From the NCBI RefSeq assembly GCF_014132355.1, contig NZ_BLZO01000031.1:41759-105758 (forward strand): a DNA stretch of 64,000 nucleotides, read 5' to 3'. The position numbers and the translations under genes are program-made. Source of the stretch: Okeania sp. KiyG1 (GTDB lineage: Bacteria > Cyanobacteriota > Cyanobacteriia > Cyanobacteriales > Microcoleaceae). Shown in pieces: positions 1 through 4,133 of this stretch. The notes under the pieces were generated by a model. The model searched no databases, was not told the DNA's origin, and was given only the letters and a program-made list of their open reading frames with translations. Each line of letters starts with the position of its first letter. Position 1 is the stretch's first letter.

Positions 1-774
1 AGACTGCGCTCAATGTCCATGAAATCTATCAGAACCAAACTCAAATTAAATAATAAACAAAAAACTTTGATGGCTCAACACGCGGGCTATTCAAGATGGG
101 TTTATAACTGGGGTTTGAGTTTGTGGAATGCTGCTTACAGAGACGGTTATCAGCCTAATGCTCGTAAGTTGAGAGAAGTTTTCACTAATCACACTAAACC
201 ACTTTATCCCTGGATGAAGAGCTTGTCATCTAAAGTTTATCAATATGCTTTGATCAACTTGGGTGAAGCGTTTAAGAGATTTTTTCAAGGGTTAGGTAAA
301 TATCCAAGGTTTAAGAAGAAAGGTAAACACGATTCTTTTACAATTGATAATTTTGGAAAGCCAATAGAATTAAATGGTTGGAGTCACAAATTACCTTTTA
401 TTGGCATGGTGAAAACCTATGAACCAATTGAAGCAACTACTCAGAAAATAACTATTAGTAGACAAGCTGATGATTGGTACCTAAGTTTAGCTTTTGAATT
501 TACCCCGACTTCAACAGAAAAAATTACTGATGTAGTAGGTGTTGACTTAGGTGTAAAAACTTTAGCAACCTTAAGCACTGGCGAAGTTTTCAACAGTGTT
601 AAACCTTACCGTAAAGCTCAAAACAAGCTAGCAAAATTGCAACGCCAAGTTAGTAGAAAAGTTAAACATTCTCGTAATTGGTATAAGGCTGTAATCAAGT
701 TAGCTAAACAGCATAGACGAGTAGCTAATATCCGTAAAGATGCACTTCATAAATTAACAACATACTTAGCCAAA

Positions 775-1650
775 GTGCGACTCGTTCCTGTTAGGAGCCT
801 CTAGAAACTAGAGGGGTATGAACAGGGTTCAAAGAGCAATTAAGCTCAATGAATAACTGAGTCACGGATGTGGGTGAAAGTCCCACCTGCCAAGGGAAGG
901 CAGACTCCCGACCTGGCCACACCGAGCTAGACCTTTCCACTAGCAGAGTGAAGCTGGCAACAGGCCCCAACCAGAGCGTATAGTGGTAGGCACACTGGGG
1001 GTAATGGGGAGACGGCATGGGTACCGGGGCGGAATGTCCTGAAAAAGCGCCTCAAAGTACGGCAAGAACCACCTCTTATCTCTTGACCGCACACGAGGAA
1101 ATCCCGCGTAATATTTTGGCATTAGACGCATCCCTGGGAATCGTGTAGGCGAATTGGACAGCCCTAAACCGTCAAAATAATCTGTAACTCGGAACGAGGA
1201 AAAACGGCAAGTGAGTCTGACTAAAATAGGTTATTTAGTTAGTAGGAGGGAAGCTCGGAATTCTCACTTGACGGGTAGGATGGGGGAACAGAATTGCCCC
1301 CGGCAGTCGAGAAACGGTAGTTGGATAGGTGATGATGCTTAGACACCTAGAGTGAAGCTCGCTGAAACTATGCGTACAGGGCAGAAGCTTTTAACCTGTA
1401 ATTGCCTTGCTCGTTAGTCGAATGCAAAGCGACCCGGAAGCAGAAGCTCCAAGGCGGTAGGATTAGACACTCCTTGAAAACAATAGTGGAAGATTAGGAA
1501 TCACTGGACTCTGACCAAGTTTAGTCTTAATCAAAGGATTTTGTATCTCACATGATACGTTGCCATAGACTGCTAGGAGCCTTGTGCGGTGAAAGTCGCA
1601 CGCAGGGTTTTGAAGTAGAGGTGCGGGCGGTAATACGCCACATCGACTAT
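775..1650 (+). mobile_element. ORF-less group II intron inserted in tnpB
   Basis: The 876-bp insert begins GTGCGAC, matching the group II 5' consensus GUGYG, and ends in AU, matching the 3' AY rule. A 34-nt domain V lies at 1577-1610, followed by a domain VI hairpin running to the 3' end. Removing it restores the TnpB reading frame exactly between codons 254 and 255. No long forward-strand ORF is present, so no reverse transcriptase/maturase is encoded and splicing would need a maturase in trans. ORF-less group II introns are known from Trichodesmium. The insertion lies just upstream of the codons for the RuvC glutamate motif. Exon-binding sequences were not resolved by eye. Confidence 0.9.
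1577..1610 (+). ncRNA. Group II intron domain V
   Basis: The 34-nt hairpin starts GAGCC, carries the catalytic AGC triad at 1578-1580, has a GAAA tetraloop (1591-1594) between GCGGU and GUCGC, and closes with GGGUUU. This length and layout are the bacterial group II domain V pattern. Domain VI follows at about 1611-1650. Confidence 0.88.
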
Positions 1651-1980
1651 AACAACCACGGCAGTGTAGTAATTGAAGATTTGAACGTCAGTGGAATGTT
1701 AGCTAACCATAAGCTAGCTAAATCAGTTAGCAGATAGTGTTTTTATGAGTTTAGGAGACAGCTTGAATATAAGTGCCAGTGGTACGGTTCTGAGTTAGTA
1801 GTAGTTGACAAGTTTTTCCCATCATCAAAAACTTGCTCTAACTGTGGTCATGTCCAAGATATGCCATTAAGCCTGAGAACTTATGATTGTCCTGACTGTG
1901 GCTTGTCAATAGATCGAGATTTAAACGCCAGTATTAATTTGAGAAATGCGGTCGGCTCGACCGTGAATGCCTGTGGATGA

Positions 1981-2750: not shown

Positions 2751-4133
2751 ATGGATAGTGCTGTGAAAAATCAAGCTCTTGTAGATGCTTTGGCGAAAAA
2801 TCTGCCGGAGGATGCAAATGAAGCGCAAGTTAGTGATATTTTTGCATCTGAATTATTTAATTTTCTGGGTTTTGAAGTAAATGAACGAGTGCCTTCTTTT
2901 TATACAAGAAGCGGTACCGATCCAGTCGATCATGCTCTACGTCATAATATGGAGAATGACATATTTAATCAAACCAAAACTAATCCAGATATTCTCGTAG
3001 AATTGAAAAAACGGAATCTTAATTTAGCTCCTGGTTCAAAAGGATATAAAGATACTTTTAAACAAATTAAACGGTATTTATTAGCAGAAAATTGTCAAGC
3101 AGTGAAGTGGGGAATAATTACCAATGCTAATCACATCCAATTATTTAGAAAGCATGGAAAAGTTATTCATCCAGCGACAGTTTGTCTGGAAATTAATCCA
3201 GAAAATATCATCAAAATCGCCACATCAATTAAAGAAAAAATTGATAAACCAAAAAAAGCATTAACAGTAGCAGTTTATAACAATAAGGGTGGCGTAGGAA
3301 AAACAACAACTACAGTTAATACAGCAGCAACCTTATCTCTGTATAATAAGAAAGTTTTGATTGTGGATTTTGACCCTAATCAAAGAGACCTGACAAATTC
3401 TCTAGCAATAAAACCAGGTACACCTACTTTTTATGATTGTTTAGTAGATAAAAATATTAATGTCACAGATGTCATTTATCCCTACAAACTTAATAGTAAA
3501 AAATCAAAAAAATCATTTGGTTTTGATGTAATTCCAGTACATGGAAAACTTGGCGATTGGGACGATGTTGCGCAAAAAATTACCTTTGACAGATTAAGCA
3601 AATTATTAGACACACTAAAAAATAGCTATGATTATATCTTCATTGATGCTCCTCCCAACTGGCGAATATTCAGTGTTAGTGCTGTTTATGCCGCAGATGT
3701 AGTGTTAATTCCAGCAAAACATAACAACTTATATTCCCTAGAAAATGCAGCTATAGCTATTAAAGAATATATTCCAGCAGTTCAAAAAGCAAGAATAAAA
3801 GATGCAGCAAGAAGAAAAAATGAAGATTTCGGACCAGTAGCTCTACCGATTTTTTTTAATGGTGAGAAAATGACGGACGCTCAAAAGAAAAGTGCTAAAC
3901 TGCATATCAATAAACTGATTAGAGAAGCTCAAGAAAATTCAAATAATCAATTTTCTCTCAGACCATATTTTTATCCCCGCTATACAGCAGCAAACAAAAA
4001 TACAGATATATTTGAACTTCCTAATTATGCTTCTATTGCAAATTCTGCTTTTTCTCATATACCTGCTGTTTACAAAGATAAGATAGCTAAGGGATATTAT
4101 ATTAATTTGGTTAAGGAGTATTTTCTACAATGA
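2751..4133 (+). CDS. ParA/MinD-type ATPase with N-terminal restriction-nuclease-like domain
   Basis: The 460-residue protein has two parts. Residues 1-165 resemble the N-terminal nuclease-like domain of type I restriction HsdR subunits, with TNPDILVELKK (D80, E84, K86) as a possible PD...ExK site. From residue 171 there is a ParA-type ATPase: the deviant Walker A YNNKGGVGKTTTT (signature lysine 179, P-loop lysine 184), then VLIVDFDPNQRDLT and YIFIDAPPNW. ParA ATPases move DNA or protein cargo by binding DNA in an ATP-dependent way. The stop overlaps the start of the ParB-like gene by 4 bp (ATGA), so the two are co-translated. Whether the N-terminal domain cuts DNA is not shown: the D-to-ExK spacing is short and the site may be inactive. 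Plasmid or island partition, or defence, are both possible. Confidence 0.85.
   Translation: MDSAVKNQALVDALAKNLPEDANEAQVSDIFASELFNFLGFEVNERVPSFYTRSGTDPVDHALRHNMENDIFNQTKTNPDILVELKKRNLNLAPGSKGYKDTFKQIKRYLLAENCQAVKWGIITNANHIQLFRKHGKVIHPATVCLEINPENIIKIATSIKEKIDKPKKALTVAVYNNKGGVGKTTTTVNTAATLSLYNKKVLIVDFDPNQRDLTNSLAIKPGTPTFYDCLVDKNINVTDVIYPYKLNSKKSKKSFGFDVIPVHGKLGDWDDVAQKITFDRLSKLLDTLKNSYDYIFIDAPPNWRIFSVSAVYAADVVLIPAKHNNLYSLENAAIAIKEYIPAVQKARIKDAARRKNEDFGPVALPIFFNGEKMTDAQKKSAKLHINKLIREAQENSNNQFSLRPYFYPRYTAANKNTDIFELPNYASIANSAFSHIPAVYKDKIAKGYYINLVKEYFLQ

Follow-up and report, generated by a model that had tools for sequence, protein, structure and literature searches.

A multicopy ORF-less group II intron in tnpB genes of Okeania sp. 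KiyG1 and its probable recent spread by retrohoming

The locus described here raises the question of why a gene for an RNA-guided nuclease should be split by an intron that has no protein gene, and whether splicing of that intron controls the nuclease. In the window, the stretch of 64,000 nucleotides from Okeania sp. KiyG1 that we analysed (NCBI RefSeq assembly GCF_014132355.1, contig NZ_BLZO01000031.1, positions 41,759 to 105,758 of the forward strand), a tnpB gene with HTH_OrfB_IS605/OrfB_IS605 and Cas12f1-like_TNB in its exons is split after codon 254 (positions 772–774) by an insert in the sense (+) orientation that opens with GTGCGAC. The first-pass annotation, made from the sequence alone, took this insert for an ORF-less group II intron and suggested that splicing may gate nuclease activity. 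The features to which the argument refers are the following.

13..774, + strand: tnpB 5' exon, codons 1–254, with OrfB_IS605 and HTH_OrfB_IS605
763..767, + strand: IBS2 (TACTT), partner of EBS2; exon –12 to –8 covaries with intron 277–290
769..774, + strand: IBS1 (GCCAAA), partner of EBS1; EBS1/IBS1 pairing across introns
775..1653, + strand: ORF-less group II intron, 879 nt; Rfam match, empty paralogues, five copies
775..1282, + strand: domains I–III, the stretch common to protein-bearing relatives; 143 predicted pairs over 15 introns
1055..1059, + strand: EBS2 (AAGTA), loop at intron 281–285; covariation scan
1115..1120, + strand: EBS1 (TTTGGC), loop at intron 341–346; 6/6 pairing
1283..1572, + strand: domain IV region without intron-protein reading frame; homologous in ORF-less relatives, 67–83% identical
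1575..1653, + strand: domains V and VI; RF00029 at 51.3 bits, hairpin and bulged helix fold
1654..1734, + strand: tnpB 3' exon as far as the in-frame stop, containing IEDLN; joined-gene reading and empty paralogues
1735..1737, + strand: in-frame TAG of the joined gene; frame of the joined gene
1738..1980, + strand: remainder of tnpB, an open frame with Cas12f1-like_TNB and a TGA end; domain match

Our data support the view that the insert is a real group II intron without an ORF of its own which splits tnpB exactly, and this part of the first-pass annotation is borne out by the Rfam core, the empty sites, the five copies, the EBS/IBS pairing and the covariation in domains I–III. The covariance-model search that it had proposed returned a match of the Rfam model Intron_gpII (RF00029) to 1575–1653 at 51.3 bits, over the cut-off of 40, and the domain V/VI core is thus present, the two domains folding as a hairpin and a bulged helix. 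Group II introns have the consensus ends 5' GUGYG and 3' AY, to which the GTGCGAC...TAAC of the window intron conforms. In domains I–III, 61 of the 143 predicted pairs have changed on both sides and 95% of cells are paired; this predicted fold covers 15 of the 25 distinct introns. The ORF list of the insert (775–1653) holds no intron-protein reading frame. A translated comparison of the insert with a 522-aa protein from a related intron (see below) gave a 13-residue match in the domain V–VI stretch (E = 0.041), which falls where that protein's own frame continues, and a second, weaker match that looks like chance. In its last part (L079 2606–2667, G000:C153), the frame of the 522-aa protein (L079 1099–2667) crosses domain V and reaches domain VI of the intron that encodes it.

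Both ends of the intron are set by empty tnpB paralogues of the same genome, which read AAA/AACCAC (LAK/NHG, the slash marking the junction) and are without exactly the intron; it spans 775–1653 (879 nt, GTGCGAC...CTATAAC). Because the empty copies read LAK/NHG, the last three bases, AAC, are intronic and the intron ends at 1653, not at 1650 as first annotated. The empty sites rule out an end at 1650, and the insertion length that they give differs by 3 nt from the annotated one, a kind of discrepancy that the annotation itself had named as speaking against its reading. Its statement that removal joins codons 254 and 255 without loss holds for the reading frame, which is preserved with either 3' end, but a cut at 1650 leaves a surplus Asn codon (LAKNNHG). 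AAC, preceded by CTAT or CTCT, stands at the 3' end of the intron in all 14 readable 3' junctions (5 tnpB copies and 9 other sites); an exception among the relatives is G096b, with ACC in its place. The Rfam core match also terminates at 1653. The annotation was correct in placing the junction just before the RuvC glutamate motif, since only a few codons separate the site from the E of the downstream motif IEDLN, which we take to be RuvC-II.

The host genome (10.98 Mb in 198 contigs) holds five copies of the intron, four identical and the fifth with a single-base deletion (878 nt), all at one codon junction of five tnpB paralogues (C31, which is the window copy, C60, C109, C142 and C171). The exons of these filled genes differ pairwise at 121–242 of 1,059–1,100 aligned sites (11–22%), and from the closest filled pair (121 of 1,099 exon sites) ~97 differences would be expected in 879 nt, whereas a single indel was observed. 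Constraint alone does not explain this near-identity, because the nearest relative of the intron among the matches listed, in another genus of the family (G359; two candidates were scored per genome), is only 85% identical, and 83% in domain IV. With no protein gene of its own and several near-identical copies, the intron has the features of a mobile ORF-less intron, and because near-identical introns sit in diverged genes we regard it as a mobile element that has spread of late and not as a switch shaped by evolution.

The reading that we favour, with a probability of about 0.83, is recent RNA-based retrohoming of a mobile ORF-less intron into a tnpB family of many copies, with the reverse transcriptase of a related intron acting in trans. 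Its directly observed part consists of the core and the domain I–III fold, the covarying EBS/IBS pairs, the five near-identical copies in diverged exons and the exact empty sites. Under this reading, the intron, whose guides EBS1 and EBS2 fit a stretch conserved in one tnpB subfamily, would have retrohomed recently into several, probably five, tnpB paralogues of one genome. It would have spread via an RNA intermediate and would be spliced in the cell, with a reverse transcriptase/maturase supplied in trans, for which the best candidate is a 522-aa protein that this genome encodes within the same intron lineage; the multicopy IS family would provide a dispersed, dispensable landing site.

EBS1 pairs with the last six exon bases at 6 of 6 positions in 22 of 25 distinct introns, compared with a mean of 2.6 and a maximum of 10 in 5,000 shuffles; the set comprises 25 of the 34 fetched introns with a 5' end, nine having been dropped as duplicates, including L042 and L027 (L027 being gapped at EBS1). 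For EBS2, a scan of exon offsets against intron positions gave z ~12 for exon –12 to –8 (40 shuffles per cell), the next signals being neighbours of that cell and then z ≤2.7. Across related introns the guide letters of EBS1 and EBS2 shift with the host site. For EBS3, no column fits all six full-length introns. The predicted retrohoming target is TACTTAGCCAAA/AACCAC. The sequence TACTTAGCCAAR is present at all 5 filled sites and at 4 of the 14 empty ones that could be read (p = 0.011, Fisher test); the four perfect targets that have no intron count against our reading.

The paralogues were surveyed by searching the genome with the TnpB N-terminal half (best 150 of 383 candidates) and reading the site in close paralogues. 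The 14 empty copies were counted by eye, with the duplicates L066, L070 and L071 counted once and without L059 (damaged site), L068, L069 and L074 (49–50% relatives) or L072, L073, L075 and L076 (45–51% relatives, no 5' match). The tnpB load of this genome is high, with at least 150 matches (the best 150 of 383 candidates) versus 24 Y1_Tnp matches, some of them fragments. In a tree of 17 tnpB paralogues (5 filled and 12 of the 14 empty, without L052 and L065), filled genes interleave with empty ones; four filled/empty changes are required, three of them forced by well-supported branches, and the filled genes grouped together in 0 of 200 bootstrap trees. Shuffled filled/empty labels needed as few changes in 223 of 500 trials, so the tree shows scatter and no more. 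Independent intron entries number at least three on well-supported branches and may be as many as five.

Would the data be better explained by a kept regulatory switch, a group II counterpart of the IStron in which TnpB is made only upon splicing and selection maintains the pair? Without splicing, the tnpB frame of the window ends at 804, after 9 intron codons and before IEDLN, as such a switch would have it, and with the intron removed in silico the tnpB frames of C171 and C109 are complete to the end. However, three of the five filled copies are broken after joining: the window gene meets the TAG 27 codons past the junction, a stop absent from the first-pass annotation, and would give a 281-aa product without the C-terminal TNB/zinc-finger part, C142 has a frame break and stops, and C60 has a frame break near its end. 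After splicing, the window copy would lack the uninterrupted frame across the RuvC and zinc-finger parts that an active TnpB gene needs. Gating of the window gene is unsupported because the joined frame meets a stop codon after splicing, and this host gene is already broken for a reason other than the intron. The early suggestion that splicing may gate the nuclease therefore fails for the window copy and is unsupported for C142 and C60; judging by the complete frames of C171 and C109, splicing could matter for TnpB in these two of the five filled copies. Intact genes are as rare among the filled (2 of 5) as among the empty copies (4 of 14: L050, L054, L056 and L058), the introns are nearly identical and therefore recent, and the filled site was found in no other genome among 389 of the order. 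We consider a maintained switch unlikely.

The TAG of the window gene lies in a stop motif, SVSR-TAG-TGN-FYEF, found at one place in diverged tnpB copies (window 1723–1748, L048, L051, L057, L062 with the variant SDSR, L063, L065, L067 and L094), that is, in nine copies of the host's own genome including the window's. Two empty tnpB copies have CAG in place of TAG (SISRQC). Among 62 family genomes, the exact string TCAGTTAGCAGATAGTGRTTTTATGA has 39 occurrences, spread over 9 genomes that include all 6 of the window's genus. With regard to recoding or functional truncation at this recurrent TAG, all 11 readable copies from other genomes are also broken or stopped ≤76 codons upstream; in the host's own genome, L048, L051 and the joined window gene are whole apart from it.

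The annotation had also proposed searching related genomes for the same intron in other tnpB genes, and the five copies found are all in the host genome. A broader 5'-junction pattern with GTGYG detected the filled tnpB site in 1 of 389 genomes of the order, the host's own (junction patterns allow no mismatch, and a reversed control matched once, in another genome). The strict 5'-junction pattern detected it in 1 of 62 family genomes and gave no match in genome_contigs or viral_contigs, where the host's own or very near genomes may be absent. An intron-internal pattern found 12 loci in genome_contigs, of which 11 match the intron and one (Magnetospirillum) does not, and none of the 12 is flanked by this tnpB subfamily; the same pattern found nothing in viral_contigs. 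A phage search with the intron gave no match, and a plasmid search gave seven records, none covering 80% of the intron.

The intron could also have spread as DNA, either carried along by a transposing IS or exchanged through recombination or gene conversion between tnpB copies, which are many and similar. Transposition, however, would bring near-identical exons, and those of the filled genes differ by the 11–22% given above; beside the junction, filled copies diverge from one another almost as much as empty copies do, save for the first 15 nt of the 5' side. On that side, in the comparison with the same 12 empty copies as in the tree, filled pairs are more alike than empty ones only in the first 15 nt (0.947 vs 0.847) and at 60–100 nt (0.718 vs 0.688). 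On the 3' side, filled and empty pairs are similarly alike up to 60 nt from the junction, and at 60–140 nt the filled pairs are more alike (0.787 and 0.820) than the empty ones (0.688 and 0.670), in an ungapped comparison in which some empty copies have indels. This 3' excess speaks for exchange between copies and counts against a clean picture; we give it little weight, though a conversion tract is conceivable. Flank divergence disfavours IS transposition or long DNA conversion as the route, and we hold a DNA-level spread to be quite improbable. Our reading is that the intron arrived repeatedly and recently, without long exon stretches. It is highly improbable that assembly errors pasted one intron into several tnpB genes at some of the five sites: the assembly is in 198 contigs and its contigs C152, C153 and C154 have a stretch in common that stops where another intron ends on its 3' side, beyond which they diverge, but each tnpB copy has its own matching 5' and 3' exons inside a contig of 41–156 kb.

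Retrohoming of an ORF-less intron calls attention to the proteins of its relatives. The genome contains at least 43 Rfam group II matches, 39 of them over the cut-off (best 150 of 531 candidates scored), and 33 matches to the maturase domain GIIM. It encodes an intact 522-aa protein of the same intron lineage (C152–C154), with RVT_N, RVT_1 and GIIM over their cut-offs, whose closest solved structure is 6me0 chain C, 'Maturase reverse transcriptase' (E = 1.2e-71). Read by eye, its C-terminal stretch is presumably HNH-like; Pfam called no C-terminal HNH domain. In C152–C154 the protein gene takes the place of the domain IV region of the window intron. Other related intron-protein copies are broken (C124 and C116) or run off the contig end (C155). 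Kinship alone marks the 522-aa protein as the most likely candidate for a trans-acting driver, and it is a fair inference that a maturase acts in trans on the tnpB intron. C152, C153 and C154 (L006, L007, L008 and L013–L015) are common up to and including the protein-bearing intron, and their differing 3' flanks suggest that the assembly is unreliable where an intron is present in many copies.

ORF-less relatives with a homologous domain IV (67–83% identical) are found at other sites in G359, G297 (from the window's genus), G308 and G096. The G359 relative (L081 2448–3326) is flanked on its 5' side by the end of another tnpB type, which its EBS1 fits, and on its 3' side by an FGE-sulfatase gene; this locus looks rearranged. 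Contig C84 of the host (L094, G000:C84:2300–7000) carries a decayed member of the window gene's tnpB subfamily, broken near codon 160 by a stretch with another group II core at its end (36.1 bits, below the Rfam cut-off). Opposite-strand reading frames resembling an IS lie within that stretch. It may be that tnpB genes are recurrent landing sites for group II introns. Downstream in the window, 2751–4133 encodes a ParA-like ATPase (AAA_31, 1.6e-31); its N-terminal stretch weakly matches HSDR_N_2, below the cut-off, and its ATPase part has a PADLOC PDC-M28B match.

We compared the Okeania intron with four known systems, as described in available excerpts of the published papers. The closest parallel, as a group II intron on whose splicing an IS gene depends, is RmInt1 in ISRm2011-2 of Sinorhizobium meliloti; its poor splicing was argued by the authors to restrain the IS (PMC4238363). 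Both introns lie within a gene of a multicopy IS that thereby depends on splicing, but RmInt1 encodes a reverse transcriptase and its host is a transposase gene, whereas the Okeania intron lacks a protein gene and its host is tnpB. Thermosynechococcus elongatus, with its TeI3 introns, is the published model system for ORF-less introns driven by the proteins of related introns (PMC2882425). These, too, are introns of a cyanobacterium; they multiply alongside relatives that carry a protein gene, and their EBS/IBS pairing with the target sites is good. TeI3 families occupy differing targets, whereas the five Okeania copies share one site in a gene family. In Trichodesmium, which belongs to the same bacterial family as our host, ORF-less group II introns are likewise found in protein genes and their splicing is documented (PMC4649490). 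The excerpts of both papers (PMC4649490 and PMC2882425) make no mention of a tnpB host, and that of PMC4649490 none of transposase hosts. In IStrons, a group I intron and an IS with an OrfB-type gene form one chimeric element (PMC4227781). The Okeania case resembles them in bringing a self-splicing intron together with an IS that bears an OrfB-type gene, but in IStrons a group I intron is joined to the IS ends, whereas the Okeania intron is group II, interrupts the gene and would move alone. We rejected identity with an IStron, the intron being group II with its ends inside tnpB.

The components of this system are known already, and their combination with tnpB was not found in the literature searched (titles and abstracts, mostly without preprints and subscription papers), which held no report of a group II intron in tnpB. 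A single genome has the near-identical introns and the empty sites, along with guides that match and a probable driver protein, which makes the proposed retrohoming history easily testable. Two RNA-guided systems, a retrohoming ribozyme and TnpB, meet in one gene, and the system permits testing whether splicing limits a transposon nuclease, as proposed for RmInt1 and its IS. It is possible, though rather doubtful, that this intron lineage has specialised on an RNA-guided nuclease family as a safe harbour and that in C171 and C109 maturase-dependent splicing sets the level of TnpB, and hence IS retention; if true, a retroelement would control the nuclease of a transposon.
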